A program made the position numbers and the translations under genes. A DNA stretch of 28,938 nucleotides from a virus, in IMG/VR virus record IMGVR_UViG_3300046517_001251, positions 1 through 28,938 of that record; one strand, given 5' to 3'. Of the stretch, positions 246 through 28,300 are shown one piece after another; within the stretch, counting starts at the first letter, position 1, and the number at the start of each line of letters is the position of its first letter. The notes under the pieces were generated by a model, which was not told where the DNA came from, searched no databases, and saw only the letters and a program-made list of their open reading frames with translations.

Positions 246-487
246 TTCGGTCCCTCCACGATGTTTTCATCGCACCATTGGCACCAGCGTATATGCGCCC
301 AGCTCGGCACATCGAATGTTTCGGTTTCGTAGTTAATGTCGGCGTCTCCCGATGTCCGTATGATCAGCGAGCAGTTCAGCAGCGTGTTGAGCGTGAACGG
401 CGTCGCGCCGTGCGGCAGGTGGACGCAGAGCCGCTCGAACGCCTCGCGGCAGGGTGGAGACAGGCCGACGCAGGGATGATCGATCAT
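242..487 (-). CDS. Small hypothetical protein with a WCQWC motif
   Basis: An 81-residue leftward frame ending SWAHIRWCQWCDENIVEGPK. It is favoured over the rightward frames in the same stretch because its stop overlaps the ATG of the next leftward gene (ATGA) and because that next gene has a clear ribosome-binding site inside its 3' end. Cysteines are spread along the protein (Cys-6, Cys-13, Cys-21, a CxxC near the C-terminus), which could bind a metal, but no family is recognisable. Its own ribosome-binding site is weak (GACGGAA). It starts about 30 bases from the rightward portal gene, so the two are divergently transcribed from a very short shared region. Confidence 0.55.
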   Translation of the reverse strand: MIDHPCVGLSPPCREAFERLCVHLPHGATPFTLNTLLNCSLIIRTSGDADINYETETFDVPSWAHIRWCQWCDENIVEGPK

Positions 488-519
488 TATCGGGGTTCCG
501 TCTTCGACAAGAGGTGATG

Positions 520-2118
520 ATGGCAGAGGAACTACCCGCCGAGAAGCCCAGGATCCGCGTCGCCGCTGGCAACAGTCAGGACCGCCTGGGGGGACTCACG
601 CTCGACAATATCCAGAATTTCGTTTCCCGCGTCGGCATCGGCACGCAGAACCAGAACAGCGCATCGGGCTACGGCTTCCATCCTATCTCGCGCATCAGCC
701 AGATGCTGGAGTGGGCCTACCGTGGCTCGTGGATCATCGGTGCCGCGTGCGACATCCCCGCCGATGACATGACGCGCGCGGGCGTGCAGATGAACAGCGA
801 GACCGACCCCGACGCCATCGAGCAGCTCCATACCGCGATGAACGAGCTGATGCTGTGGCAATCACTAAACGAAACGATTAAGTGGTCCCGGCTCTACGGC
901 GGCGCGCTGATGGTCATGATGATCGACGGGCAGGACATGGCGACCGAGCTGGACCCGACCACGGTCGCCGAGGACCAGCTCAAGGGTTTTCAGGTGATCG
1001 ACCGGTGGATGGTGCAGCAGAGCTTCCGCGACCTGGTGCTGGACTATGGGCCGGACTACGGCATGCCGCGCTACTACGATGTCATGGCGACCGCGCCATT
1101 CATGCCGCGCCAGCGCATCCATTACACCAGGGTCGTGCGCATCGATGGCGTGATGCTGCCGTTCCGCCAGAAGATCGGCGAGAACGGCTGGGGCATGTCG
1201 GTGGTCGAGCGGCTGTATGATCGGCTGATCGCTTTCGATAGCGGAACGATGGGCGCGGCGCAGCTCCTCTACAAGGCCTACCTGCGCACCTACAAGGTCA
1301 AGGGCTACCGCACCCTGATCGGGGCCGGTGGAGAGCTGACAGAGAAGTTCATGAAGACCATGGACCTCATGCGCATGCTGCAAAGCAATGAGGGCATGAC
1401 GGTCATCGATAGTGAAGATGAATTTGAAACGCATGCGTATTCATTCGCCGGGCTCCCCGAGACGTTGATGATCCTGGGTCAGCAGATATCCGGCGCGCTC
1501 GGTATCCCGCTCACCCGCCTGTTCGGTCAATCGCCAAGCGGAATGAACGCGACCGGCGAAAGTGACATGCGTAACTATTACGATATGATCAAGGCCACGC
1601 AAGAGGCGCGGCTGCGCCGACCGCTGACCAGGGTCATGGACGTGATGTGGCACAGCGTGCTCGGCACCGAGCCGCCCGATACGTTCAATTTCGATTTTAG
1701 ATCGCTTGAGCAACTAAACGAGCAAGAGAAGAGCGAGATCACCGAGCGTGACGTGGCCAGCATCGTCAGTCTGCACAACGCCGGGATCATCTCCACCAGC
1801 ATCGCGCTGAAGGAACTGAAGCAGGGGTCGATCCTCACGGGTCGTTTCACGAACATAACGGACGAGGACATCAAGGAGTCCGAGGAGATGCCCGCGCCGT
1901 GGTCCGAAGAGGCGCAGCAACAACAGCAACAACAGGCCATGATGGGCGGCGGCATGCCCGGCGGGGATCCCAACGATCCGAACGGCGGCGCGCCAGGCGG
2001 CGAGGGCGGCGGCATGCCGGGCACACCGACCGAGAGCCAGCCGCCTGGCGCTGGCATGCCGGGCGCGAGCGTCCCGGCACCGAGCGCGGGCGAGCCGACG
2101 AACAATGCCGACCGCTGA
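520..2118 (+). CDS. Portal protein, DUF1073 / phage_portal_3 type
   Basis: A 532-residue portal protein, the ring at the capsid vertex through which DNA is packaged and ejected. The N-terminal third (SQMLEWAYRGSWIIGAACDI, then SRLYGGALMVMMIDG) and the central LFGQSPSGMNATGESDMRNY segment with its following helix TQEARLRRPL are hallmarks of the DUF1073 family. The C-terminal 90 residues are low complexity: a run of seven glutamines and then repeated Gly-Met-Pro units. The family gives its name to an Acb1-like N-terminal domain because some members carry a fused Acb1 nuclease, but no Acb1-type HxT pair is visible here. AGAGGTG precedes two adjacent ATGs (517 and 520); the second has the better spacing. 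The last 14 bases overlap the MuF gene. Confidence 0.93.
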   Translation: MAEELPAEKPRIRVAAGNSQDRLGGLTLDNIQNFVSRVGIGTQNQNSASGYGFHPISRISQMLEWAYRGSWIIGAACDIPADDMTRAGVQMNSETDPDAIEQLHTAMNELMLWQSLNETIKWSRLYGGALMVMMIDGQDMATELDPTTVAEDQLKGFQVIDRWMVQQSFRDLVLDYGPDYGMPRYYDVMATAPFMPRQRIHYTRVVRIDGVMLPFRQKIGENGWGMSVVERLYDRLIAFDSGTMGAAQLLYKAYLRTYKVKGYRTLIGAGGELTEKFMKTMDLMRMLQSNEGMTVIDSEDEFETHAYSFAGLPETLMILGQQISGALGIPLTRLFGQSPSGMNATGESDMRNYYDMIKATQEARLRRPLTRVMDVMWHSVLGTEPPDTFNFDFRSLEQLNEQEKSEITERDVASIVSLHNAGIISTSIALKELKQGSILTGRFTNITDEDIKESEEMPAPWSEEAQQQQQQQAMMGGGMPGGDPNDPNGGAPGGEGGGMPGTPTESQPPGAGMPGASVPAPSAGEPTNNADR

Positions 2119-2989
2119 ACAGCGGGCCGCGCATCGCCGCTGGAAGCGAGCCGAACAGGCGGCGGAGACCCATTTCGCCAAGGCGCACAACGCGGCGGCG
2201 TCCTACGGGGCGGCGCTGCGGCGCTACGCGCGCAGCATCCACGAGATCATCCAGCATTTCGTCCCGCGCATCGGCACCGCCGGGCAGCCCGAGCTGATAC
2301 GCCTACGCGAGGCGCTGGGGGCCTACGGGGCGGCGAACGAGCCATGGGCGAGGCGGGTGACCGGCAGGATGGTCGCCGAGGTGTCGCGCCGCAACCTGTC
2401 GGCCTGGAAAGCTCACTCTGGCGAGATGAGCCGTGGGCTACAGGTGGCATTGCAAACCGCGCCGATTGGTCTGCCGGTCGCGACCATGATGGGCGAACAG
2501 GTCGAGCTGATCAAGTCCATGCCTGTCGAGGCCGGTCAATGGGTCCACGAGCAGGTGCAACAGGCGCTGGTCGATGGCGAGCGATACGCCGAGGTGACCG
2601 CCCGCGAGGCGGGCTACGTCGGCACCGAGACATGGGCGGCACCGGGGGATCCCCGGCTGACCGAGCTGGGCCGCAGGTTGCAAGAGGCACAGTTCGCCAA
2701 AGGCGAGACACGCAGCCTGGAGTGGCTGATGAACCGCGCGACGCTGATCGCCCGCACCGAGACCGCCAGGGCCAACAGCGTGCTGACCCAGGCCCGCGCC
2801 GAGCACGTCGGAGCGGAGCAATACATCTGGAAGACGGCGGGCGACGCGCGGGTGCGCGAGAACCATCGACGGCTCAACAACACCGTGCAATCATGGTCCG
2901 ACCCGCCTGAGTCCGACCCGCCGCTCCACTCACACCCAGGCGCGATCTTCAACTGCCGCTGCATCGCGTTACCCATTATTCCGAGCTAG
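2105..2989 (+). CDS. Minor head protein, SPP1 gp7 / Mu gpF family
   Basis: A 294-residue protein with a C-terminal phage_Mu_F domain. The diagnostic elements are an Arg-Thr-Glu helix (LIARTETARANSVLTQAR, about residue 214 onward), the W-K-T-A-G-D-x-R-V-R-x-x-H-R segment, and the terminal HPGAIFNCRC signature (His-277 to Cys-286). The N-terminal half is helical and charged, as expected for a protein packaged with or bound to the portal. It starts inside the 3' end of the portal gene with a 14-base overlap, which is a classic portal-MuF pairing. Members are minor capsid components thought to enter the head and, in some phages, the host cell. Confidence 0.92.
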   Translation: MPTAEQRAAHRRWKRAEQAAETHFAKAHNAAASYGAALRRYARSIHEIIQHFVPRIGTAGQPELIRLREALGAYGAANEPWARRVTGRMVAEVSRRNLSAWKAHSGEMSRGLQVALQTAPIGLPVATMMGEQVELIKSMPVEAGQWVHEQVQQALVDGERYAEVTAREAGYVGTETWAAPGDPRLTELGRRLQEAQFAKGETRSLEWLMNRATLIARTETARANSVLTQARAEHVGAEQYIWKTAGDARVRENHRRLNNTVQSWSDPPESDPPLHSHPGAIFNCRCIALPIIPS

Positions 2990-3401: not shown

Positions 3402-6400
3402 ATGCAATGGCACACGGTCTCTCGCATATCCGACCATCTGGAGCTGACCCCCGAGGGGTTCCTGCTTTGCCGGGACGTGGCCATCGCGCGCACGGGGCTG
3501 CAGTATTATCGGGACGCGGAGCTGCCCGACGTCGATGCCGGGCCGGACGGCTGGATCATGGTGGAGCGCGAGCCCGAGCAGGTGTTCGCGGAACGATCCA
3601 TCGCGAGCTTCACCGGCAAGCCGATCACCAATGACCACCCGAACGATGAGGTGACGCCGGACACGTGGACGCACCTGGCCATCGGCAACATGCAGAACAT
3701 CAGGCGCGGGACCGGCGCGAACCATGACGTGCTGCTCGCCGACCTGCTGTTCACCACCCGCCGGGGCATCAATCTCGTTACGTCGGGGAAACGTGCTCTC
3801 AGCGTCGGCTATCAGGCGCACTACGATCAGCAGATACCCGGCAGGGCGCGCCAGCTCAACATCATCGCCAACCACGTGGCGCTGGTCGATGAGGGGCGAT
3901 GCGGCGACCGATGCGTGATCATGGACGGCTCGCCGTTCTACAACATCGATGCGGAAGCAGAATGGAACGAGGGCGACCATCCGCGCGACGAGACCGGACA
4001 GTTCAGCCTCGCCGGGGCGCAGGGTATAGTCGATAAACTATCGAAACAATACAACACCGGGCCGGTGAAGGCGGAGATCGATGATCTGGATCTGCCCGAC
4101 GCCATGGCGACGCACCGGGGCGGCACGATCTACCTGTCGCCGAAGCATTGGAACGAAACCGAACTGACCGACTATGCGAAGAAGTGGGACGGTCTGGTCA
4201 ATGACTCATCGGTCGAGGGTCTGATCACGCATGAGTTCGGGCATTATCTCAATCATAAGCTCGAAGAGAAGATCGATCCGATAACGTTATGGAATATCGT
4301 CTACAAGTGGCTGGGCTATAGCGGCACTGGCAATCTCAGCATCATGGGCAACCAGACGTCCCCCTACGGGCAGGAAAACGTCCATGAGTTCCTGGCCGAG
4401 GCGTTCTCCGCGTTTCACAACGGCAAGCACTCGGTCGGTCCCGAGAACCCGCTGCACGCCGAGATGGAGCGGGTGCAGAAGGGCGTGTGGAACGAGCTGA
4501 TCGAGACCGCCGCCGGTCCCGCGCTGCCAAAGACGCAAGAAGCGGCGCGCTATATCGCGGGCGACAATGACCACGCCAAATACAGCGTCGAGCGGTTGAA
4601 GGCCGCGCGCGGGCTGTTGGAGGGGTCCACCGCGCGCGGCGACGTCGGCAAGCGGGCGATCCTCGACCGTGAGCTGAAGGCGCGCGGCAAGGCGGAACGT
4701 TTCCCGCCGAAGCCGATCCGGCCATCGGCGGAGGGGGTCACGGCGGCGGCGCACCTTGAGCATGCCGAGAAGGCGCACGCGGTGGCGACGTCCCGGCTCG
4801 ACGCGGTGCCCGATGAGTATGTGCCCGCGATGGCGCGGGCGGTGGCGCACACCGAGGCGCATCTGTCGAAAGCCCGAGAGGCGCACGCCATGATCCACGG
4901 GTTACTCACCGCCGACGATTGGAACGAGTCGGCGCACAAACGCGGCCAGCCGCATAACAAGGGCCAGTTCGGCCCCGGTGGCGGTGGTGGCGGCGGCAAG
5001 AGCCAGAGCTATGTCCAGGCCGGTGAGGCGGGCGAGCCTGGCGGCAGGACGGCAGCGCGGCGACCGCCCGCGCAGACCTACGTGCGCGCGGGCGAAGCGG
5101 GCGAGCAGACCGGCGGCGGTGGCGCGAAGGAGCCATCGACCGGCGAGAAGATCGATGCGGTAGCGAAAAAGATGGCCGGGAAAGTCCTTGGGGGAGCGAA
5201 ACATTTCGTCGCCGAGGACTACGAGATCGTGCATGAGCATTTCAAGGCGGCGAAGGCCAACCCGAAGGCGATGCACCAGATTGGCCGGGCGATCCGCGCC
5301 ATGGGCGCGTCGCTGCCGCAACTGGCGAAGGCGCACTTGCTCGAAGAGAAGGCCCACGCGGTCAACGCCGCCGGGGGCCTCAAGGCGTTGGCGACCGGCA
5401 ACAAGCCGTCGCCGGAACAGGTCAAGGGGCTGAAGTCTTTCGCGATACGCGCCATGATGGTGGCGGCGGGCATGGCGCTGGGGGATCCCACCGGGTCGGC
5501 GGGCGAGCTGGCCATGCATTTCGGCGAAGATGCCGTGCATCACGTGATCATCGAGCACGCGTTGAAGCTCTTCGTCGGCGGCGGTGCGGGCATGGTCAAG
5601 GGCGCGCTGGCGGCACCGCAGAAGGACGCGCTACCGGAACAACCCGAGAACGACGACTCGGACGACTCGGACGACCCGAAGGCCGACCCGAGCGGCGGGA
5701 CGCAGATCGAGCTGAGCGAGGAAGACCTTGCGATACTGAAACAGTTTCTCGAGAGTCTCTCCGAGGCCATCGAGGACATGGACGAACAGGATGCGCATAC
5801 CATCCTGTTCCAGGGGCAGACGCCGGACGAGGACGATGACAAGGCGGACGGCTCGGATGACAAGCCAGACGACCCGTCTGTCAAGGCGAAGCGGCCCGAT
5901 GACAACGACGACGTGGACTATGCGCAGACCGAGGATGCCGATTGGAACGAGGCGGCGCACCCGCGCGGGCAGCCCGAGAACGCCGGGGAGTTCAGCTCGG
6001 GCGGCGGTGGCGGGGGCAAGAAGGCCCCGGCGCGCGAGATCCATTCGGCGGCGTTCGTTTCACCCAGTGTGACGGACAAGGATTTCCCCGGCGCGGTCAA
6101 GGGGCTCGGATCCGAGCGCCAGCATATCCTCGAAAAGGCGTCGGCGGAGATCGACCGCGCCATGGGGCTGCGCACCCGTGATCGACCGGCCATCGGCGCG
6201 TGGTCGGACGGGGCCGAGAACAGCATCATGACGGAGATCGACGGGGGCACCTTCGACCAGCTCCGCGTCGCCGCCGCGATGAAGGCGCATATTGCCGATC
6301 AGAAGGCGACGCTTATATTTCAGGAGCAAGACGGCGGCGACGCTCACCTCTACCATTTCGAGGCGACGGGCGAGCTGGCCGATATACACGCCAACCTGTT

Positions 6401-8576
6401 GAAGGACGGGGTGGCGTTTCATACGATCATCCCGAACAAGGGCGGTGGTGCCACCGTCTACTCGGTCGATCTGGAAGGTGGAGCGGAACATGACATCGCA
6501 CGAGCAGCGAGTCGCTACGGCTCGAAGGTTAGGGCTCAGCGTGGACGCGCGGAGTTCGTTGGAACCGCCAAACAAGACGGGACCGACAGGGAGCAACGGG
6601 ACGACGCGCGCGAAAACTACGAACGAGTCATTGGCGGCTCTGGGGATCGAGCTGCTCAAACCCTCTGGCAAAGGATACATGCTACCCACGGGGCGAAGCT
6701 CGACGTAACGAAAGATCGTCGCGCTCTGGCAATGACTATCGACTACGCCTGGACGGAGGACATCGATTTCGATCCCGCCGACCATCCGCGTGGTGGCAAT
6801 CCGAAGAGCCCAGGGGAGTTTTCCAAGGGCCCCGGTGGTGGCGGGGCCGCGCCCGAGACGAAGGCACCGGGCCCTACCAGGGGGGCGACCGCCAAACACG
6901 ACCGGCCCGACGCCCCCGCGCCTAGCAGCAACACCGCGAAAGAGGTCAGGGCGGAGAAGGGCAAGGCGGCGCGGGCGACCATCCGCGCGCACCTGAAGTC
7001 CGCCCGCGAGGCGGTGCGCGCCGCCGCGTCGGCGATGCGGATCAAGACCCGCGCCGAGGCGGCGACCGCCAGGGAAGCGGCGGTCAAGGCGGAGAAGGCG
7101 GGCAAGCTCGTGGCCAAGGTGGCGGCGGCGAGGGAACCGCCGAGCGCGATCCTGCACACGCCCAAGCACGAGGCGGCGATATCCACCCGGATCCCGAGCG
7201 AGCCGCAACAGCGGCTGACCGGCGTCGATGTCCACAAGCTCAACACGTCGGTCGTGGATTGGCAGTCGGCGACGATGCCCCAGGCCAGCGAGTGGCTGGA
7301 GAAGGCGAGCAACCTGCTGACCGGTAAGAGTCAATACACACCCGGAAGGAACGCCAAGGGCAAGGCGAACCCTCCCGTGGAGTATATCGGCATGCGGCCA
7401 GGCCCGCCGGGCGAGACGCCTAAACAGGCGGCGGAGCGGTTTATTTCGTTCGCGCAAGGTAACATCCTCGCGCTGTATAACGCGGTGCCGATGTCATGGC
7501 GGGCGGACGCGTCCAAATGGTATGACGGCGCGCAGACGCTCACGACCAACTGGTCGAAGGATTATAACTACACGCCGCAGCAAATCGCCGGGGCCATCGC
7601 CGCGATGTCGCCGAAGAAGGACTGGTTCCAGAACGTTGATATAACAAAACGATTGATGGACTACCGGCGCGACTACGCCAAGGGTGGCAAGTTCGAGAAC
7701 GAGCGGTTTGATACCAAGGCCCAGGCCGCGATGCTGGACATGATGAGTCGTTCCGGTGACAAAAGGAAAGCGGAGTTTCAGGCGATCTTCGACCGCATCA
7801 AGGGCCAGCGGCTGCAGGATCTCACGACATCACTGGACCAGGCGACGTGGATCAACATGCACGACATGGGACATGGCGACCGGCGCTATAAGAAGATCTC
7901 GCCCGAGGGTAAGTTCAGCGACGATTGGATGACCAACAAGGAAGCCGATACCGATGATGACGACGACGACACGTCGGGGAACGCCGCCGCCGCGACGGCA
8001 TCGACCTGGGCCACGGGCAAGAACATCGCCAAGGCCATCGACATCCTGAACGACGGCAGCACCGAGAACATCTCGAAAAACCTGGGTGAGGCACACAAGG
8101 TTCGCAATTTCTACATGAACATCATCGATCCCATGAGTAAAGACGGGCACGTAACGATTGACACGCACGCCATCGCCGGGGCGTTCCTGCGCCCGCTGGG
8201 GCAGAAAAACGTCGAGGTGCAGGTGGGCCTGGGCAACAGTAGCCCGAGCGACAACACCTATGGCCTGGGCGGCACCTACCCGATGATCGCCGAGGCCTAC
8301 CGGCGGGCGGCGGCATCGGTGAACCCGCCGTTGCTGCCGCGCCAGATGCAGAGCATCGCCTGGGAGTCGATGCGCGGGATCTTCACGCCCGAGGGCAAGC
8401 GGGACAAGAAGCTCCGCGCCGCCGTGGATAACCGCTGGAAAACCTACATGCACACCCAGAGCCACAGCCCAGAGGAAGAAGCGAAGCAGCTCGCCGCGAC
8501 GCGGGCGTCGATTATGCGGCTGGGATCCCCCGAGCTGCGGGGCGTGCCGCGCACACCGTCATGGAAGAAGTCATGA
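3402..8576 (+). CDS. Prohead protease (DUF2213) fused to a polyvalent module chain
   Basis: A 1724-residue protein from the ATG at 3402, chosen because AGGGGGG lies seven bases upstream; an earlier in-frame ATG at 3348 has no such site. Residues 1-182 are a DUF2213 prohead protease: TNDHP (His-79), SVGY (Ser-134) and NHVALVDEGRCG (His-158) are plausible catalytic residues of an assemblin-like Ser-His-His enzyme. Module 2 is a metallopeptidase-like domain (HEFGH 277-281, downstream HEFLAEAF 328-335). Module 3 is helical with two hydrophobic stretches and an acidic tail. Module 4 carries GAWSDGAENS (932-941). Module 5 has an Ala-rich coiled coil, then a domain with HVTIDTHA near 1583-1590. Linkers at 188, 507, 848 and 1123 separate the modules. 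Module functions beyond the protease are inferred from motifs only. Confidence 0.9.
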   Translation: MQWHTVSRISDHLELTPEGFLLCRDVAIARTGLQYYRDAELPDVDAGPDGWIMVEREPEQVFAERSIASFTGKPITNDHPNDEVTPDTWTHLAIGNMQNIRRGTGANHDVLLADLLFTTRRGINLVTSGKRALSVGYQAHYDQQIPGRARQLNIIANHVALVDEGRCGDRCVIMDGSPFYNIDAEAEWNEGDHPRDETGQFSLAGAQGIVDKLSKQYNTGPVKAEIDDLDLPDAMATHRGGTIYLSPKHWNETELTDYAKKWDGLVNDSSVEGLITHEFGHYLNHKLEEKIDPITLWNIVYKWLGYSGTGNLSIMGNQTSPYGQENVHEFLAEAFSAFHNGKHSVGPENPLHAEMERVQKGVWNELIETAAGPALPKTQEAARYIAGDNDHAKYSVERLKAARGLLEGSTARGDVGKRAILDRELKARGKAERFPPKPIRPSAEGVTAAAHLEHAEKAHAVATSRLDAVPDEYVPAMARAVAHTEAHLSKAREAHAMIHGLLTADDWNESAHKRGQPHNKGQFGPGGGGGGGKSQSYVQAGEAGEPGGRTAARRPPAQTYVRAGEAGEQTGGGGAKEPSTGEKIDAVAKKMAGKVLGGAKHFVAEDYEIVHEHFKAAKANPKAMHQIGRAIRAMGASLPQLAKAHLLEEKAHAVNAAGGLKALATGNKPSPEQVKGLKSFAIRAMMVAAGMALGDPTGSAGELAMHFGEDAVHHVIIEHALKLFVGGGAGMVKGALAAPQKDALPEQPENDDSDDSDDPKADPSGGTQIELSEEDLAILKQFLESLSEAIEDMDEQDAHTILFQGQTPDEDDDKADGSDDKPDDPSVKAKRPDDNDDVDYAQTEDADWNEAAHPRGQPENAGEFSSGGGGGGKKAPAREIHSAAFVSPSVTDKDFPGAVKGLGSERQHILEKASAEIDRAMGLRTRDRPAIGAWSDGAENSIMTEIDGGTFDQLRVAAAMKAHIADQKATLIFQEQDGGDAHLYHFEATGELADIHANLLKDGVAFHTIIPNKGGGATVYSVDLEGGAEHDIARAASRYGSKVRAQRGRAEFVGTAKQDGTDREQRDDARENYERVIGGSGDRAAQTLWQRIHATHGAKLDVTKDRRALAMTIDYAWTEDIDFDPADHPRGGNPKSPGEFSKGPGGGGAAPETKAPGPTRGATAKHDRPDAPAPSSNTAKEVRAEKGKAARATIRAHLKSAREAVRAAASAMRIKTRAEAATAREAAVKAEKAGKLVAKVAAAREPPSAILHTPKHEAAISTRIPSEPQQRLTGVDVHKLNTSVVDWQSATMPQASEWLEKASNLLTGKSQYTPGRNAKGKANPPVEYIGMRPGPPGETPKQAAERFISFAQGNILALYNAVPMSWRADASKWYDGAQTLTTNWSKDYNYTPQQIAGAIAAMSPKKDWFQNVDITKRLMDYRRDYAKGGKFENERFDTKAQAAMLDMMSRSGDKRKAEFQAIFDRIKGQRLQDLTTSLDQATWINMHDMGHGDRRYKKISPEGKFSDDWMTNKEADTDDDDDDTSGNAAAATASTWATGKNIAKAIDILNDGSTENISKNLGEAHKVRNFYMNIIDPMSKDGHVTIDTHAIAGAFLRPLGQKNVEVQVGLGNSSPSDNTYGLGGTYPMIAEAYRRAAASVNPPLLPRQMQSIAWESMRGIFTPEGKRDKKLRAAVDNRWKTYMHTQSHSPEEEAKQLAATRASIMRLGSPELRGVPRTPSWKKS

Positions 8577-9480
8577 TAACCGCACAAGATCTGGAACCGT
8601 ATCGAAAAGACCCGGTGGTCAATCAGATGCTCACCTACGGCGGCGAGCTGACGCGCGAGCGTTACATCATCCTGGCGACGCTGAACATGCCGGAAACGTA
8701 TCAATGGGACGGCGAGGACGAGAAGGATATGCCGCCGCCGTTCCGGCTCGCGGACACGGCGTTTTGACCGCGTGCGGCTGCGCCCCGTGCGTCGCCGCGC
8801 GACGGTCGGCGGATGCCGAGGCCTGGGAGACCGAGGCGCGGAACGCGGGCGGTGAGTGGACGTCGGGCGGCGGTGGCGGCGGCACCGAGGGCGCGAAGAA
8901 GGTCGGCGCGGCGAAACCGAAGTGGGGCACCAGCGCCAAGAAAAACGCCGAGCTGGCGGCGGAGCTGTTGCGCTCCGCCGGGTTCAACGGGGTGACCGAG
9001 AACCCATCGGGGCACAAGCTCGACTCCCGCTTCGCGGCGATGGGCAGCGCGACCAATGGCATCCTCGTCAACCCGCGCTGTTCATTCTGGAAGGATCCCG
9101 TGGCGTCGGCGAAGCGCAACCACGAGGTCGGGCACCTGTCCACGCCGCACCCGATGGGCGTGTTGCTGCACGAGATCGCGCACACGATGTATCCCGACGT
9201 GCAGGGCTACTGGTCGGCGGACAGCCAGAAGGCCATCGCCGGTCGGGTCGGCAAGTATGCCATGACCAACCCGAAAGAGTTCGTATCCGAAACGTTCGCC
9301 GGGCTGCACACCGGTATGACGTATGACGATGACGTAATGAATTTATATAAGATCCTGACGTGGAAGCGGACGGGCGATCACGTGGACGTTGACTACCCGT
9401 GGACGGCGGACGCCGAGGGGTGGGAGACCGAGGCGCGCAAGGGCAAGGGGCCCGGTGGTGGCCAGTGGACGTCCGGTGGT
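3963..9480 (+). repeat. Six dispersed inter-module linkers (W/F..HPR..GQF type)
   Basis: Short protein-level repeats lie between domains of the two giant proteins. In the first protein they begin at nt 3963 (WNEGDHPRDETGQF), 4920 (WNESAHKRGQPHNKGQF), 5943 (WNEAAHPRGQPENAGEF) and 6768 (FDPADHPRGGNPKSPGEF). In the second they begin at 8824 (WETEARNAGGEWTSGG) and 9421 (WETEARKGKGPGGGQWTSGG). All but the first are followed by a glycine run. The conserved elements are an initial Trp or Phe, acidic residues, usually Pro-Arg, and a final Gly-Gln/Glu-Phe/Trp. The related phrase PRDEKGRW is, from memory, common in phage MuF and polyvalent proteins. Confidence 0.85.
8573..8767 (+). CDS. Small hypothetical phage protein
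   Basis: A 64-residue protein beginning MITAQDLEPYRKDPVVNQML. The start at 8573 is chosen because the ATG overlaps the stop of the giant protease fusion (ATGA) and GGAAGAAG sits just upstream; the ATG at 8561 lies within that ribosome-binding region. It is polar, with an acidic C-terminal third (GEDEKDMPPP) and no membrane segment. Its 3' end lies inside the likely 5' part of the next giant gene. No family is recognised. Its position between two polyvalent proteins suggests a partner or chaperone role, but nothing in the sequence proves it. Confidence 0.75.
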   Translation: MITAQDLEPYRKDPVVNQMLTYGGELTRERYIILATLNMPETYQWDGEDEKDMPPPFRLADTAF

Positions 9481-11100
9481 GGCGGCGGTGGCGCGAGCGG
9501 GCCGACCGGCGGCGAGGCGATGAGCGCGGAGGAACCGCCAGGCGCTGGCCGGTTCACGCCGCCAACGAAGTCCGTCAAGGCCTACAAGCTCTTCGAGCAG
9601 CGCGGCGGCAAGCTCTACCCGCTGTTCATCGGGGCCAAGGAACCCGTTTCGCAGGGGGAATGGATCGAGGGTCGGTTTCAGCCGACGAAGGGCTACGCCG
9701 AGCGTCCTGGCTGGCACGCGGGCGTGCTGCCCATCGCGCCGCACCTACGGCAGCTCTCGACCGGTAAGATGGCACCGTCCCGCGTCTGGGCGGAGGTGGA
9801 GCTGCCCGCCGACGTGGACTACCAGGCGGAAGCGGAAAGCTCGCCGAAGCGGGACATCCGGGGCAAGGTGCCAGCGGGCGGGTTCTATCGTTTCAAGACG
9901 AACAAGATGCAGGGCGGCGCGTGGATGATCGGCGGCGCGGTGAAGGTCAACCGCGTGCTGTCGAACCGCGAAGTGGGCAGCATCCTGCGCGAGCATGGCT
10001 ATCCCGAGGACGAGATCGCGCGCGAGACGCACCCGGAGACGGCGGTGTCCGCCGAGCCGGTGGAGTCGGGCCGGATGCCACCCGTGACGCGAACGAAGTC
10101 TGGCCGGGAACGTTACGATAACATCAAGAAGCTCTCGTTGCTGATCGACCGCGCGCAGGGCGGGCCCGAGGGGTCGATGGACAAGGTGCTGTTGTCGCGG
10201 ATCCCCGGCGCGGATCTGCGCGAGGCGATGCTCGACCTGCAGACGCTCCGCCGGGATGACGTGACAGGCAAGCTCTCGAAGGACGACAAATACATGCTCG
10301 ACCGGCTGACCGGCGAGATGGCCAAACGGTTCACGGTCGCCCGCGAGGCGCGCGAGAAGCGGGCCAACGATTACGCGTGGATGAGCGCCGAGGATCTCAA
10401 CACCGAGCTGAGCGAGAACATCAACGCGCCGAAGACGATCCCGTTTTTCGGCGGCGACTCATCGATCAGGATCGCGCTGCAGCGCCAGCTCGGGTTGCTG
10501 CCCAAATCGCACGTCGAGGCGCTGCTCCGCGACAACGTCACCATCCGCGCGGTGCATGAGTGCGAGCCGTTCGGCGCTAACCATCCCGGCGCGCCGGGGA
10601 TGCAACCGGCGGGCGTGTTCTTCGGCGGCACGGGCGAGATACAGGTGGCTGACGACATCACGCTGCCGGACGGGACGAAGCGGCACCTGTCGCAGCGCGA
10701 CGCGACGCTGCGCCACGAGATCGGCCATGCCATCGACCGGATCACGCGGTTGAGCGAAGACCCGGAGTTCATCGCGGCGGTGGACGAGGGCGTCAACAAG
10801 ATGACGCCGGAAGAGTATGAGGCGGCGGCATACTGGCTAGGCGAGAAGTATGCTCTGGGCGGGTTCCAAAACCCGCGCATGGGGGAGATCCTGAAGCGGG
10901 AGATGCGCCGCAAGGAGACCTGGGCGGAGATGTATTCCTACGCCTACGATGACTCCGCCGATGGCTATACCGCCTTCGGCGGGCTGTCGGGGTTCCGCCT
11001 GGCGATGCTGTTCGGGCACGCCAAAGCGGTTATGCGTAGCAGACTCGGGGCGTTCATGTCCGACCGGACGCTCGACCACGTGCGGAGGATGGCGGCATGA
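8704..11100 (+). CDS. Polyvalent protein with two metallopeptidase-like domains
   Basis: Up to 798 residues from the ATG at 8704; an in-frame TTG at 8764, at the stop of the preceding gene, gives 778 and starts nearer to recognisable sequence, so the N-terminus is uncertain. Numbering is from 8704. A linker at 41-60 leads into a metallopeptidase-like domain with HEIAH (156-160) and a downstream KEFVSETF (Glu-192, Glu-196). A second linker at 240-263 leads into a domain with YKLF, PGWHAG (335-340) and a GAWMIGGAVKVNRVL segment, recurrent in phage multidomain proteins but uncharacterised to my knowledge. A helical stretch follows, then a third metallopeptidase-like domain with RHEIGH (671-675) and ETWAEMYSYAY (Glu-738, Glu-742). 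It ends overlapping the next small gene by ATGA. Confidence 0.85.
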   Translation: MGRRGREGYAAAVPARGHGVLTACGCAPCVAARRSADAEAWETEARNAGGEWTSGGGGGGTEGAKKVGAAKPKWGTSAKKNAELAAELLRSAGFNGVTENPSGHKLDSRFAAMGSATNGILVNPRCSFWKDPVASAKRNHEVGHLSTPHPMGVLLHEIAHTMYPDVQGYWSADSQKAIAGRVGKYAMTNPKEFVSETFAGLHTGMTYDDDVMNLYKILTWKRTGDHVDVDYPWTADAEGWETEARKGKGPGGGQWTSGGGGGGASGPTGGEAMSAEEPPGAGRFTPPTKSVKAYKLFEQRGGKLYPLFIGAKEPVSQGEWIEGRFQPTKGYAERPGWHAGVLPIAPHLRQLSTGKMAPSRVWAEVELPADVDYQAEAESSPKRDIRGKVPAGGFYRFKTNKMQGGAWMIGGAVKVNRVLSNREVGSILREHGYPEDEIARETHPETAVSAEPVESGRMPPVTRTKSGRERYDNIKKLSLLIDRAQGGPEGSMDKVLLSRIPGADLREAMLDLQTLRRDDVTGKLSKDDKYMLDRLTGEMAKRFTVAREAREKRANDYAWMSAEDLNTELSENINAPKTIPFFGGDSSIRIALQRQLGLLPKSHVEALLRDNVTIRAVHECEPFGANHPGAPGMQPAGVFFGGTGEIQVADDITLPDGTKRHLSQRDATLRHEIGHAIDRITRLSEDPEFIAAVDEGVNKMTPEEYEAAAYWLGEKYALGGFQNPRMGEILKREMRRKETWAEMYSYAYDDSADGYTAFGGLSGFRLAMLFGHAKAVMRSRLGAFMSDRTLDHVRRMAA

Positions 11101-15886: not shown

Positions 15887-16846
15887 ATGGGTGCAGTAGC
15901 GGCGCGCCGGTCAATCGGCGACTACGTGCGGGACGCGTTCTTCGCCCGCGACAAGGCGACCCTCGCGGCCATCGTGAAGGATGCCGAAGAGGCGGTGTTG
16001 CCGATGCCGCCGGTCGAGGGCGAGCACAAAGAGCCGGACGGCGATGAGGACGACAACCAGCGCCACAGCGTCCACGTCCACGTCGAGCACGGCAAGGACG
16101 CGGCGGCTCTTGAAGGCCGCGTCGGCAAGATCGAGGACAGCCTCAAGGCGCTGGACACCAAGATCACGTCCTTCTTCGACGCGATCATCAAGGACGGCGA
16201 CCTGCCGCCGTGGCTGCAGAAGGGCGGCGAAGGCGGCGAGGGCGAGGATCCGCCGAAGGATGACGACAAAGACCCGCCCCCGCCCCCGCCCGAGGATCCG
16301 ACCAAGGACGAGGACGTCAAGGAAGGCGAGACCGGCGCGCTGAGCGCCGAGAAGCTGACCGCCGCCGAGCCCGAGCTGATGGACGCGGACGGCAGCCTGA
16401 AGACCGGGCCCATGAAGATGGGCGACGCCGCCTACGTGGCGGCGGTGCAGAAGGGCATCGGACGCCTGGTCAGGGACGTTCGCGCCCGCGCGGAGATCCT
16501 CTCGCCGGGGATCAAGTTCCAGACCATCGACGCGAAGCCCGGCATGGGCACCGCGAAGGCGCTCTGCGACATGCGCCGCCAGGCGCTCGGCAAGGCCGGG
16601 AAAGCGGCGCTCGGTCGTTTCACGACCGACGCGATCAAGGGCATGAGCTGCGAGAGCGTTCGGGTGTTGTTCCTCGATGCGTCGGATCGTCAGGCGGCGG
16701 CGAACAAGCTCGCGTCTTCGCAGCAGGGCTACGTGACCGGAGACGACGTGTTCACGCCGAACGACACGCAGGTCGGGCGGCTGAAGGCCATCAATACCGC
16801 GAACCGGGATTTTTGGTCGAAGCAGACGAACGGCGTTCGTCATTAA
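15887..16846 (+). CDS. Probable capsid scaffold protein (DUF2213 C-terminal type)
   Basis: A 319-residue acidic protein with GGAGGT nine bases before the ATG. The N-terminal helix (SIGDYVRDAFFARDKATLAA), a His-rich HSVHVHVEHG, a coiled coil (RVGKIEDSLKALDTKITSFF), a Pro/Asp-rich stretch with six consecutive prolines, and a C-terminal AINTANRDFWSKQ helix match the scaffold half normally found downstream of the protease in DUF2213 proteins. Here the protease is encoded separately at 3402, about 12 kb upstream. It probably nucleates prohead assembly and is removed by that protease. Its position directly before the decoration and major capsid genes supports this. The assignment is from layout and composition; there is no catalytic motif. 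Confidence 0.72.
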   Translation: MGAVAARRSIGDYVRDAFFARDKATLAAIVKDAEEAVLPMPPVEGEHKEPDGDEDDNQRHSVHVHVEHGKDAAALEGRVGKIEDSLKALDTKITSFFDAIIKDGDLPPWLQKGGEGGEGEDPPKDDDKDPPPPPPEDPTKDEDVKEGETGALSAEKLTAAEPELMDADGSLKTGPMKMGDAAYVAAVQKGIGRLVRDVRARAEILSPGIKFQTIDAKPGMGTAKALCDMRRQALGKAGKAALGRFTTDAIKGMSCESVRVLFLDASDRQAAANKLASSQQGYVTGDDVFTPNDTQVGRLKAINTANRDFWSKQTNGVRH

Positions 16847-17392: not shown

Positions 17393-18397
17393 ATGCCTGA
17401 TGGTATGGGCAGGTTTGGCATGGGAGGTAACGGCGGACCCGCTTTTACTTTCGATGCCAAAACAAGGGACGCCACTGGCGTCTTCTTGATTGGCGAGCTT
17501 GAGCGGTTAGACCAGACGCTGCATGAGCCCCTTGTCGCGTATACGTGGGGCCGTGACATCGATGTCCGCGAAGACGTTACCATCGCGGACGAAGTGTCGA
17601 GCTTCACGCTGTCGTCCTACGCGGCGACCGGCGGCATCGACCCGGCTGGCGTGAGCTGGATCGGCAAGGACGCCAACGCGATCACGGGCGCTCAGCTCGA
17701 TATCGGCAAAGTGCCACAGCCTTTGTATCTGTGGGGCATGGAGCTGAACTACACGATGCCGGAACTCGAGTCCGCCATGCGTGTGGGCCGACCCATCGAT
17801 GATCAGAAGTATCAGGTGATACGGCTGAAGTATCAGATGGACGTGGACCGGTTGGTCTACGTGGGCGATCTCACGGTGAACTCGTTCGGGTTGACGAACC
17901 ATCCGAGCGTGACCAACGTGGCGAACGTTACCGGCGGCACGTGGGCGGCGGCGCAAACCGCGAACACGCCCGACGTCATCCTGCAGCAGATCAACGAGCT
18001 GCTCGAAGCGACGTGGCGCGCCTCTGGCTGGGCTATCATGCCGACTGAACTACGGGTGCCGCCGACTGAGTTCGGCATCTTGGTCAGCATGAAAGTTTCA
18101 GATGCTGGCAACATCTCTCTGATGCGGTTCATTCAGGAGAACAGCCTCTGCAACACGGCCAACGGCAAACCGCTGAACATTCAACCGCTCAAATGGTTGA
18201 ACGGACGCGGCGCGGCGGGCAGCCAGCGGATGATGGCATACACCAAAGAGTATGACCGCGTTCGTTACCCGATGACATCGATGTCGCGCACTCCGCTTGA
18301 GTGGCGCTCGCTGTATAACCTGACCACGTATTATTGCCGGTTGGGTGTGCTTGAGTATGTCTACCCCGAGACGTGCGGATATCGCGACGGGATCTGA
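17393..18397 (+). CDS. Major capsid protein, DUF2184 type
   Basis: A 334-residue major capsid subunit. GGAGGG eight bases upstream gives a strong start. The family signature is present: VFLIGELERLDQTLHEPLVA, then YTWGRDIDV, PLYLWGMELNYTMPELESAM, KYQVIRLKYQMDVDRLVYVG, GLTNHPSVTNV, and LEWRSLYNLTTYYCRLGVLE near the end. DUF2184 proteins adopt the HK97-like fold. The length is typical. The first 20 residues are glycine- and methionine-rich (DGMGRFGMGGNGG) and may be flexible. The gene follows the decoration gene by 24 bases and is followed by a 94-base gap. Confidence 0.92.
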   Translation: MPDGMGRFGMGGNGGPAFTFDAKTRDATGVFLIGELERLDQTLHEPLVAYTWGRDIDVREDVTIADEVSSFTLSSYAATGGIDPAGVSWIGKDANAITGAQLDIGKVPQPLYLWGMELNYTMPELESAMRVGRPIDDQKYQVIRLKYQMDVDRLVYVGDLTVNSFGLTNHPSVTNVANVTGGTWAAAQTANTPDVILQQINELLEATWRASGWAIMPTELRVPPTEFGILVSMKVSDAGNISLMRFIQENSLCNTANGKPLNIQPLKWLNGRGAAGSQRMMAYTKEYDRVRYPMTSMSRTPLEWRSLYNLTTYYCRLGVLEYVYPETCGYRDGI

Positions 18398-22332: not shown

Positions 22333-25300
22333 ATGGCCGTCATTCCGACGATCATCAAGCGCACAGCCACGCCCGGCAATTCGCCGATTGAGGGCTCGCT
22401 GCGTCCTGGCGAGCTGGCCGTCGAGATGGCCGATCCGCTGCGGCTATGGGTCGGCGTGCCGTCGTCGGTCGATCCGGCCATGCAACGGAACATTTTCGAC
22501 GCGGCGTCTGACGTCTACCTGAAGCTCGACGGCGGCACGATGCGCGGTCGGCTCAACCTGGGCACCTCGTCGGCGATCTATCCGCGCCTGGGAACGGCGG
22601 ACGCCGTCGCGGGTTCGGGTCTCGCGGCGTTGACGATGACGATCCAGCCGGGCGTGAGCGACGGTGGTTTCGGCGCGGGCGTCGGGATCGTGGCGGGAAA
22701 CGCGGGGACCACGACGTCCGGCAATGGCGGCAACGTCGGACTGAGCGGCGGCAACGCCAGCCCGCTGGGCGGCGCGGGCGGAGCGATCACTCTTCAGGCG
22801 GGTAGCGGTTTCGAGGACGGCGGCGCTATCCAGATGCGCGCCGGGACCGCCCGCATGGGCGGTGGCGGCGGTGGCGGTGACGTCAATATTGTCCCTGGCG
22901 GGGGACAGGAAGGTGCCAGGGGCGGCGATCTCACGTTGCGCGCTGGCGGTGCCGTCGCCGGGGGTCCGGCGGGGCTCCTGCAGATCGTGGGCGGTATCAC
23001 CATCGGCGGCACGGCGGGCACGATCCAGATCGTCGCCGGGGTCGGCTTCGGCGGTTCGCGCGGGCCCATCATGGTCTCCGGTCTGGGTTCGGTGAAGCCG
23101 ACGCCGGTCGGACAGCTCTGGAACAACGGCGGGCTGGTGGGTCTCGTCGCGGCCAATCCGGCGGCGGACACGCCCGGCTTACCGATCCTGATCCATGCCC
23201 AGGCGGGCGGCGGCGGCGTGGCACCTGGCGGTGGCATCGAGCTGTTCGGCGGATCCTCCAGCACCGGGCCCGGTGGCAACGTCACGCTCGGCGGCGGACT
23301 CAGCACCAGCGGCACGACCGGCCTGATCCGCGTGCTCGGTCTGCCGACCGTGGCGCAGACCGATATTCAGGCGGTGTGGAACAACAACGGCATCCTGAAC
23401 ATCGGCGCGGGCGGCGGCTCGGAGTTCCTGAACGACGCGCCGAGCGACACCTTCGCCTACGGTCGGCGGGACGCGGCCTGGGCCAAGGTGCTCGGGCTGA
23501 CCGGCGGCACGATGATCGGCGATATCGTCATCGACGGATCCGTCGCGCGCGTCACGACGGCGGTCCTGGCGAGCGGCGTGGGCTCAAGCCTGGCGCTGGC
23601 GGTCGCGGCCAGCACCGGCCTGGCGGGTGCCGCTGGCGTGGCGTCGCTGCAGGGCGGCAACGCATCGACCGATGGCATCGGCGGCAACGCGGTGCTACGC
23701 GGCGGCGCGGGCGGGGCGATCTCTGGCAACGCTGGCCAGGCGCGCGTCGAGGGCGGCGCGGGCACGGCGGGCGCGGGCGGCGACGCCTTCGTCAAGGGCG
23801 GCGACTCAGGCATGGGCGCGGGGGGCTCGGTCAACCTTCAGGCGGGATCCAGCGCCACCGGCTACGGCAAGATCAACCTGCTGTCGCTGCCGAACGCGGC
23901 ACAGCCGGACAACGCGGTCTGGAACAACCAGGGCGTGCTCAACATCGGCGCGGGCCGGGCCAACAGCCCGCTGGACGCGCCGCTCGATGCCAATACCTGG
24001 GGACGCTATCAGGGCACCTGGGAGCCTGTCCTGTCGCTGCTCCGGGGCGGCGCGGTGCAGGGCCCGGTCTACGTCCAGAACAACGTCGTGGTGCAGGGCA
24101 TCCTGACGGTCGGCATGAACGGCTACCTGCTCCTTGAGGGTCAGGGCGGGATCGCGCCGCCCATCGTGACCGGAGGGGCGAGCGCGGTCGGCGGCAATGG
24201 CGGCGAGCTGCGGTTGCTGACCGGCGCGGGCGACGGCGCGGGACGCGGTGGCGATATCGTGCTCGACCCTGGCGGCGTCGGCACGGCGGCGGGGCGCATC
24301 CGGCTGGTCGATCTGCCGACCGTGCCGCAGTCCGAGCCGGACGTGGTCTGGAACAACCTGGGCGTGGTCAGCGTCGGCGCTGGCCATTCGGCGATTGAAG
24401 CTCCGGTCGATGGCGTGACCTACGGGCGCAAGGATGCCGCATGGAAAGCGGTGCTGCCGCTGACCGGCGGCGAGCTGTCCGGCAACCTCTACATGGCTCT
24501 GGGCACGTTCATCACGACCCCGGCCATGACCGTTCCCGACATGGTCCGGGCCAACCATCTGTCCATTGGGCCGGGGCATTCAACGGTCGATGTCGGCGCG
24601 GGCAACCTGAACCTCGAAGGCGGCGCGACGACCCAGGCGGGTCCGGCGGGGAACGTGCTCATCAAGGGCGGCAACCCCGGCACGCTGGGCCGGGGCGGCA
24701 ATGTTTACGTGTCGGGCGGCACCGACTCCGCGCTCGGCGGCGGCGAGATCCGCCTCACGGGCGGCACCGGCACGGGCGCGAGCGCGGGCGGCGGCTGGAT
24801 CAGTCTCCAGGGGGGCAACGGGTCAACGCTGGGAACCTCGTCCAATGGCGGCGGCGTGCAAGCCTGGGGCGGGTCCGGCTCCTGGGGCGGCGACAGCACG
24901 TTCGGCGCGGGGAACGGCGGGGATTTTGGCGGCATCGCTTTGTTTCGTGCTGGTAACAGCACCCGCGAAAATGGCGGGCCCATGCTCATCCGCTCGGGCG
25001 TGTCGGCGGAGAACAGCGGCGGCGGCATCATGATCCTGGCCGGGCGCGGCACGAACGATCCCACCAAGACCGGCGCGGGCGGCAAGATCCTGATCATGGG
25101 CGGCGGTGCCCATAATGGCTACGCCGGGGACGTGGCGCTCTACGGCGGCGCGACCTGGGGCGTGGAAGGAAGACCGGGCAACATCCTGCTGCACGGCGGC
25201 AACAGCACCTATGGGGGTTCGACGCAGCCCACGGGCAAGGTGTCCATCATCGGCGGCATCTCTTACGCGAACGTGCAAAGCCCTGGCGGCGAGGTGATCG

Positions 25301-28300
25301 TCAGCGCGGGCGACTCGCAGAACGGGGTGCAGCGCGGTGGCGACCTCACGTTGTCGGGGGGCGTCAACACCATCGACCCGGCGATGAACGGCTACATCAT
25401 CCTGAAGAACCTGCCGAGCACGGCACCGGAGAACCCGGAAGCGTTGTGGTTAAGCAACGGTATTCTGGGCATCGGTTCGAGCGGCACCAACGCCTACATG
25501 CCGATCACGGGCGGGCAGCCGCCAGCCGTGGACTCGGGCGTCGGCGCGGCGGTCAACATCACGGGCGGTCGCGGTGTCAGCATGGGCGGCGCGCTGACCT
25601 TCGACGGTGGCGCGGGGGCCATCGGCGGCAATATCAACCTCATTGGCGGCGTCGGTAGTGGCGCGGGCCGGTCGAGCGGGCACGTCGTCCTCAAGGGCGG
25701 TCATGGGGCCCAGGGTCTGGCTGGCGGCGTCTTCCTGAATGGCGGCGACGGTCTGGACGCGGGCGATATCGGACTCACTGGCGGCAACGCACACGCGAAG
25801 ATCGCGGGCAACATCAACATCCAGGGCGGCATCGCCAACGCCGCCGCCGATCCCGGCGAGGGGCTCGGCGGCTATGTCATGCTCAGGGGCGGTCAGGGCA
25901 AAGGGGTCAGCGGCAGCGTCTTCATCGAGGGCGGCGCGTCACTCGGCGAACAGAGCGAGCCGGGCAACGTCGAGATCCGGGGCGGCAGAAGCCCCAGCGG
26001 CGCGCCATCGCATCGGACCAACGGCAAGGTGCTTATTATCGGGGCCGAAACGTTCGAGAACGGTTTCGTCGCGGGCGGCGACGTCGAGCTGGCGGGCGGG
26101 CCATCCGCCAGCGCCACGCAAATGGGTGGCGACCTCGTGTTGTCGGCGGGGGTAAATAGTGTCGATCCGTTAATGAACGGGCGGATCTTCATCGAGAACG
26201 CGCCGCTCTCGTTCGGCTCGTTCGGCACCATCGGCACCGAGGTGAACGAGAGCGGCGAGGGGATGGACGTCAAGATCGCCGCCGCCGACAGCTCGGGCAC
26301 GTCGGGCATGGGGCTGCTCGGCGGATCGATCCAGATCAAGGCGGGCGATCATACGGACCCGCTGGGGCGCGGTGGCAGCATCTTCATGGTCGCGGGTTCG
26401 TCGGTGGGAGAAAACCGTTACGCTGGCGGTATTTTTCTAAAAGGCGGCAAGGGTGGTTACGGTGGAGGAGCGGTAACCATCTCGGGCGGAGATGCTCAGC
26501 CGGGGAGCAACTCGCAGGGCGGGTATCTCAATCTGTATGGTGGTTACGGCGACGGCACCGGGGCGCTCGGCGGTGTTTATGTCTATGGTTCGACGTTCTC
26601 CGTTGCCGCCGAGTCCCTGTTCCAGCGTGACGTGCTGTTCAGCGCATCCGCGACGCTGCGACCGGAACGCATCTCCTCGCCGGAAGGTAAGGGGTTGTCC
26701 ATTAGCGCCGCGACGTCGATCAACATCATGGGCGGTGTCGGCAGTGTCAGCGGCGACGTCGTGGTCGTGGGCGGCACCGCGCAGAACCCCACCGAAGGTG
26801 ACCCGACCGCCGCTGGCTACGCGAAGCTCCAGGGTGGGCTCGGTTGGAACCGCGCGGCCAATGTTCCCGGCGACGCGATTGTTTCGGGTGGCGATCATAA
26901 TTGGGCCGGTGGTTTGCCGGGCAATGTCGTCATCATGGGCGGTCGTAACAGTGACAGCACGATCTTCGGCGTCATCAAGCTGCAGCATTTGCCGACCGTT
27001 ACGCAAACAGATCCAGATGTCCTCTGGAACAATGCTGGAGTTTTGAACATCGGCGCGGGCGGTGTCGCGGGCGGTGGCGGCGGCGCGGGTCTGCCCACGA
27101 CCGGCGGCACCATGACCGGCGATATCGTCATGACGAACGGCGCGCGGATCACCGCTCCATCCGCCGCTGATGGTTCGCTGGCCATGGGCGAGGATATTGT
27201 TATCGAGGCGGGCAACGCGGATGGAGCGTTCCGAGGCGGCAGCGTTTATTTGCGGGCGGGGCTGAGTGAGGGTTCCGCGCGAGGGGCCATCAATGTTGAT
27301 GGTCCGCTGGTCATGGGTGTCGATAGTTACATTACGTCATCGGACAATTTAACCCTCCATCTCAACGCGCACGTAGCGGTCAGTCAGACGATCTTCACGA
27401 TGGGAGGCCTCACTGGTGCGCCCCAAACAGTAGTTGATACCGATGGCTACGATCTTCGTATCTATTCTAGCAGCGCCAACGGTGTAGGGCTGGGCGGTGA
27501 TCTTATTCTGTTCGGAGGTCCTTCGGGAGCGCATAACGGCGGGCTTGGGTTCGGCAAGGTGTTCGTCGGCGGCGAGACATCTGGCGGCGGCTGGGTCTCC
27601 GCTGTTCATTTCGGCGATGTAATTATTTCTGACTCTCGCCACACCGATATCCTGGCGGGCTCCACGGCGAACGCGGGCAACGTCATCATCCGCCGTCCGC
27701 TGAAGCACCCCAACTCCACCGGGCTCGACGGCAACCTGTTCATTGAGAACCTGCCGACGGTGGCGCAGGCCGATCCACGCGCGGTGTGGGACAACGCGGG
27801 CGTCCTGAACATCGGCGCGGGTGGATCGTCCGGCGGCGCGGGTCTGCCCACGACCGGGGGCACCATGACGGGGCCGCTGCTCCTGGCGAGCGGCCCAAGC
27901 TCTTACGTCCCCATTTCGACCCCGGACGAGCCCGGCGGAAGCAGCCTGGAAGGTGGGGATCTGATCCTCTCGACCGGACTCGGCGATCCCGTGGCGGTCC
28001 TGAAGGCCGGGGATATCCAGTTGATGCCCGGCACGGGCGGCAAGATCCGCGTCCTGGCCGATCTTCAGATGTCCGAGGGGAATATCGTCCTCTTCGAGGA
28101 CCGGGAGATCACGTCGTTCTTCAATCCGCTCGCGGGCGACTCAAGCAACATCATCCTTCGGACAGCCGACTCCACGGGCCTGGCGGGGCGTTCAGGTGAT
28201 ATCCGTCTGATTGGGGGTGTTGGGCCGACCTACGGCGGCGGCATCACCATCGCGTCCGGCGCGGGGGCTTCGGGCGGACCCATACTGATCAGCGCGGGCG

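Follow-up and report, generated by a model that had tools for sequence, protein, structure and literature searches.

A peptide of 14–18 residues recurs six times over two neighbouring head-cluster proteins, A and B, encoded in a virus fragment of 28,938 nt that we call the window (the whole of IMG/VR record IMGVR_UViG_3300046517_001251). It falls in segments predicted to be disordered, related phages exchange protein modules at it, it frequently stands near the N-terminus of otherwise free proteins, and its genes lie among head genes. We put the chances at about even that this short linear tag marks the N-terminal end of head-carried effector modules and docks them as cargo, with release perhaps following; the virus head probably takes up the tagged modules so that they can be injected.

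Six copies of one peptide in two head-cluster proteins

The consensus reads [W/F]x[E/P]xxHPRxxxG[K/R/Q/E][F/W], with a variable spacing x(n) between HPR and G and often a Gly/Ser tether behind it. All six linker sites of the original prediction could be located and are in frame (Table 1), and runs of at least four glycines stand behind the last five, as had been claimed. HPR, described there as usual, is present in the four copies of protein A, but both copies in protein B are degenerate and lack it; the full motif is thus not always needed, which counts against reading it as a targeting tag. The claim that every site marks a domain boundary likewise holds with one exception, motif 5, which lies near the N-terminus of B and not between two domains. 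In 5000 composition shuffles the strict pattern, with four matches in the window, was expected 0.0086 times, and the pattern followed by GGGG, with five matches, 0.0 times. Since the copies differ in their synonymous codons (CAT/CAC, CGC/CGT, GGA/GGC/GGG), they are alike at the protein level and are not a recent DNA repeat.

Table 1. Genes, modules and tag motifs in the window
Feature	Position	Strand	Remarks
Portal gene	454–2118		Pfam, PHROGs
MuF gene	2105–2989		Pfam, PHROGs
Protein A, 1724 aa	3402–8576	+	four linkers and four cargo modules behind a DUF2213 prohead-protease domain
DUF2213 (head maturation protease) domain	3444–3926	+	residues 15–175, E 8e-45
Tag motif 1	3963–4004	+	WNEGDHPRDETGQF, in frame; at least 13 aa behind DUF2213 in relatives
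Module M1, zincin-like	4005–4919	+	HEFGH at residue 277; weak ATLF match
Tag motif 2	4920–4970	+	WNESAHKRGQPHNKGQF, in frame, polyglycine behind
Module M2, helical then acidic tail	4971–5942	+	cluster c3; other positions in relatives
Tag motif 3	5943–5993	+	WNEAAHPRGQPENAGEF, in frame, polyglycine behind
Module M3, alpha/beta	5994–6767	+	confidently folded, pLDDT about 90; directly behind DUF2213 in L143
Tag motif 4	6768–6821	+	FDPADHPRGGNPKSPGEF, in frame, polyglycine behind; pLDDT about 33
Module M4, contains DUF7178	6822–8573	+	PF23802, E 3e-25
64-aa ORF	8573–8767	+	joins A and B via ATGA and TTGA overlaps
Protein B, three modules	8764–11100	+	listed from ATG 8704
Tag motif 5	8824–8859	+	WETEARNAGGEW, in frame, polyglycine behind; about 21 residues from likely B start
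Module M5, zincin-like (HEIAH)	8860–9420	+	66% identical to module fused to DUF2213 in L148
Tag motif 6	9421–9468	+	WETEARKGKGPGGGQW, in frame, polyglycine behind
Module M6, phrog_30118	9469–10071	+	missing between M5 and M7 in L148
Module M7, zincin-like (HEIGH)	10072–11097	+	42% identical to L148 ORF1 394–716
Scaffold gene, split from DUF2213 protease	15887–16846	+	matches C-terminal half of phrog_1961
Major capsid protein (MCP) gene	17393–18397		Pfam, PHROGs

Protein A starts at an ATG with a purine-rich stretch just upstream. Its N-terminal part matches head maturation protease PHROGs and, in BFVD, prohead-protease folds, and its DUF2213 domain keeps the conserved DHP, SVGY and NHVALV. With this head-protease fold and the conserved H/S/H positions, whose catalytic roles are assumed, the domain looks like a prohead protease of predicted activity. 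AlphaFold2 modelled DUF2213 and M3 best (pLDDT about 90), with weaker modules between them, and placed all four linkers of A within segments predicted to be disordered (pLDDT below 50). A PDB search with the N-terminal 1165 residues of A gave no match at E 0.001. M4 had no match in a fold search; from its sequence we would guess at a DNA-glycosylase-like domain.

For protein B we prefer the TTG at 8764 over the ATG because of the TTGA overlap with the 64-aa ORF; it is the likely start, and it would make motif 5 an N-terminal tag as well. Sequence similar to the 64-aa ORF is present on the opposite strand in a related locus (L143, 12190–12050). The start of B also carries a CxCxxC peptide followed by basic residues (8764–8810), and the same peptide opens the scaffold ORFs of relatives (L135 11561, L137 5571, L139 11205, L140 8871, L143 15388, L147 10006), which suggests a possible further tag at the N-terminus. 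No motif stands at the junction before M7, the last module of B. In L148, residues 389 to 394 run contiguously across the place where the window has M6, so M6 and its motif were inserted in the window, or lost in L148, as one unit.

Module exchange among DUF2213 relatives

The window was compared within a set of 80 DUF2213 loci that includes it. In 20 of these, at least 13 residues separate the domain from the motif, with cargo following; one more, L132, carries a degenerate form with HPH. The motif-bearing loci and L142 together make up a supported clade of 22 rows. In L142 (3188–4822), which is nested there, DUF2213 is fused directly to the scaffold and cargo is absent; this locus has probably lost its cargo. 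Most DUF2213 phages encode the scaffold behind the protease in one ORF, whereas the motif clade has it as a separate gene farther downstream, so that cargo sits between protease and scaffold. The DUF2213-scaffold genes of phrog_1961 share with the window the protease and its place between the MuF and capsid genes, but have the scaffold directly behind the protease, with neither motif nor cargo.

Relatives permute the modules and split them into genes differently. L143 has the order DUF2213-M3-M2-M4 against DUF2213-M1-M2-M3-M4 in the window, and the alignment ends fall inside motifs. Three loci (L146–L148) have one gene for DUF2213-M5-M7 followed by another for a tagged M2-M3-M4 chain, indicating that module sets have swapped genes relative to the window, and L123 combines DUF2213, the motif and a Nudix-like cargo, with the motif again at the start of the next ORF. 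Within the clade, a motif is no more than 25 residues away for 74 of 138 internal homology ends, against 15% expected. Over all motif ORFs the figure is 23% against 9% expected, so breakpoints also lie elsewhere; within the window's clade the association is strong. The proposal that the linker is a standard joint flanking exchangeable modules is, at the level of sequence comparison, strongly supported.

Spread and N-terminal use of the motif

A scan of viral contigs with a DNA pattern for HPRDxxGxF, which favours G+C-rich codons and from which no total can be derived, matched at least 120 stretches, at least 111 of them in frame with an aromatic residue upstream. The information profile is high at W/F, E, HPRD, G and F and close to 0.1–0.5 bit in the flanks; conservation of HPRD..G.F is largely set by the search pattern, that of the aromatic residue and E much less so. 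The motif thus stands out as a conserved stretch within linker sequence that varies. Among the matches listed, 123 distinct proteins have a closed 5' end, and in 70 of them the first motif lies at most 60 residues from the N-terminus (17 expected); the same holds for 29 of the 74 proteins of at least 500 aa (4.6 expected). On these positions the motif is as much a tag as a linker.

Among the matches listed, the motif is preceded by portal, MuF or DUF2213 protease domains or by other effectors, and followed by ADP-ribosyltransferase (ART; 15 of 104), zeta toxin (6), topoisomerase IB (4), Nudix, DUF7178, PBECR3, InPase, KptA and LPD domains. Tagged free proteins have portals, terminases and MuF among their gene neighbours. 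Cultured isolates carry the motif too: gp15 of Mycobacterium phage Leopard and gp78 of Gordonia phage Boopy have it at the N-terminus, and in Pseudomonas phage Orimi01 it joins portal and ART. In a search of one genome per bacterial species, a stricter pattern gave 11 matches in prophage-like loci of at least seven phyla, as judged from record titles, several of which are of metagenome-assembled genomes (Elusimicrobia, Bacteroidetes, a spirochaete, Firmicutes, Verrucomicrobia, a betaproteobacterium and Gastranaerophilales). The prophage-like contexts include portal-motif-LPD13, LPD3, ART-PolyVal and glutamine deamidase. At one locus (L093) several short adjoining ORFs each carry a tag, as would arise if a polyprotein split into genes of one cargo each.

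Being so short, the motif makes a poor query: it found no relative among solved structures, and tblastn returned only 20 phage records. Open-access text yielded no account of it. That the motif is a general head-loading address in tailed phages of many phyla, any module behind it being packed and injected, is an extension we would advance only tentatively. Were it true, the address would be the phage counterpart of a secretion signal. How phages choose the proteins they pack and inject is known in only a few models, and a tag readable from sequence would list candidate injected effectors across phage genomes, many "hypothetical proteins" included, and make the packaging rule directly testable. 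Tagged chains would also be a natural example of multi-effector assembly by cassettes.

Proposed head loading, possible cutting and known systems

The suggestion that the peptide targets proteins to the head is plausible and is the one we prefer; we infer packaging and docking from its N-terminal place in free proteins, the portal, terminase and MuF neighbours, and the head proteins among its fusion partners. In the scheme we propose, the tag would label free cargo proteins at the N-terminus and, where cargo is fused behind portal, MuF, protease or another cargo module, form the joint. As the procapsid assembles, it would dock cargo to a component of the head, like the capsid-targeting sequences (CTS) of T4 and P1, while the Gly/Ser tether would allow the modules to fold independently; cutting near the tag might then free the cargo, as an optional step. 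Cassettes of tag plus module are gained, lost, reordered and shifted between genes. In the window's clade, cargo sits between protease and scaffold, now separate genes, with the tag following the protease.

The original prediction also offered the linkers as cleavage sites of the DUF2213 enzyme. As a general rule this is not supported: motif-bearing phages mostly lack DUF2213, and most DUF2213 phages lack the motif, which is absent from the stretches of flank covered at all 58 DUF2213-scaffold loci outside the window's clade. Nor does it occur in the window's MCP and scaffold, the classic substrates, or in its portal and MuF proteins. It does not regularly co-occur with the protease, within the limits set by fragments and model sensitivity: a recognised prohead protease was present in 21 of 52 motif-bearing records (DUF2213 10, S78 8, S78_2 3, S49 0) and none was recognised in the other 31, where records may be fragments and distant proteases may be missed. 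In two complete actinophage genomes the stretches covered contain no annotated head protease, although unassigned head-cluster genes remain there. A processing site at which a prohead protease (DUF2213 here) cuts at or near the tag, turning one chain into several effectors within the head, is also hard to square with P in place of E in about 15% of copies and with a conserved core longer than known prohead-protease sites; we regard it as unlikely. Yet the protease does head protein A, [W/F]xE is similar to the L/IxE and AxE sites cut by the T4 and giant-phage enzymes, targeting alone needs no repeated tags along one chain, and portal-ART fusions would require release before the ART could be injected. 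Portal-cargo and MuF-cargo fusions would moreover make a targeting tag redundant, which favours release or mere inheritance. Release may therefore matter alongside targeting: cutting may take place in the window's own clade, or one signal may combine targeting with cleavage, as it does in T4.

The clustering of breakpoints at the linker, its predicted disorder and the Gly/Ser runs that 70 of 211 copies have in the next 14 aa (among the matches listed) would also suit a recombination joint and flexible spacer selected only for shuffling, with no partner that binds or cuts it. Such a spacer needs no conserved positions, but these are kept over very diverse phages; synonymous codons differ between the window's copies, and in free proteins with an N-terminal motif nothing is joined there. 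We consider this reading decidedly improbable. That the chains are cut at the linkers by their own zincin-like modules is prompted by HEXXH in M1, M5 and M7 and by the autoprocessing proposed for the metallopeptidases of other polyvalent proteins (PMC5512222). However, the window modules match a peptidase family only weakly, and the domains identified in the motif-bearing chains sampled include no metallopeptidase family, which makes self-cutting very improbable indeed.

Our preferred reading, a head-loading tag, has its closest parallels in T4 and P1. The T4 CTS (the first about 10 residues of IPI–IPIII) is likewise short, N-terminal and found on diverse proteins that are taken up into the head and then injected; exchangeable cargo in general can take this route. 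In the T4 internal proteins the same ten residues are used for targeting and for processing (PMC9026906). The T4 sequence is cut by gp21 at L/I-x-E and, unlike the tag, is not known as a repeated internal joint. In P1 DarB, a signal in the first 30 residues suffices to pack a reporter (PMC9024508). The tag shares the N-terminal position, with internal copies in addition, but the DarB N-terminus lacks the motif and the two are not similar in sequence.

Proteins A and B also resemble the phage polyvalent proteins of Iyer et al. 2017 (PMC5512222) in joining several unrelated domains in one polypeptide encoded among virion genes of the head cluster. As candidates for known polyvalent domains, the window offers the HEXXH modules, the weak Pfam ATLF match and fold matches to phage proteins named large polyvalent; clear LPD and ART domains occur in other motif-bearing proteins, and the tagged proteins taken together have ART, LPD, PBECR, InPase and zincin-like modules in common with the polyvalent proteins. 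The main text of that paper mentions neither the linker nor an HPR motif. MuF polymorphic toxins (PMC5576092, PMC11699363), like the tagged fusions, place a head protein before variable effector domains, but their joint is not described as a motif, and here the carrier may also be a portal, a protease or nothing.

M4 has a counterpart in a separate head-locus protein of Roseobacter phage CRP-738, gp40 (L129, 4873–7380), in which the DUF7178 module follows a methyltransferase-like part without the motif; the gp40 gene is next but one to the portal gene. At the far end of the window, an ORF of at least 2202 aa (22333–28938), very rich in glycine repeats and running off the end, is likely a tail or fibre protein.
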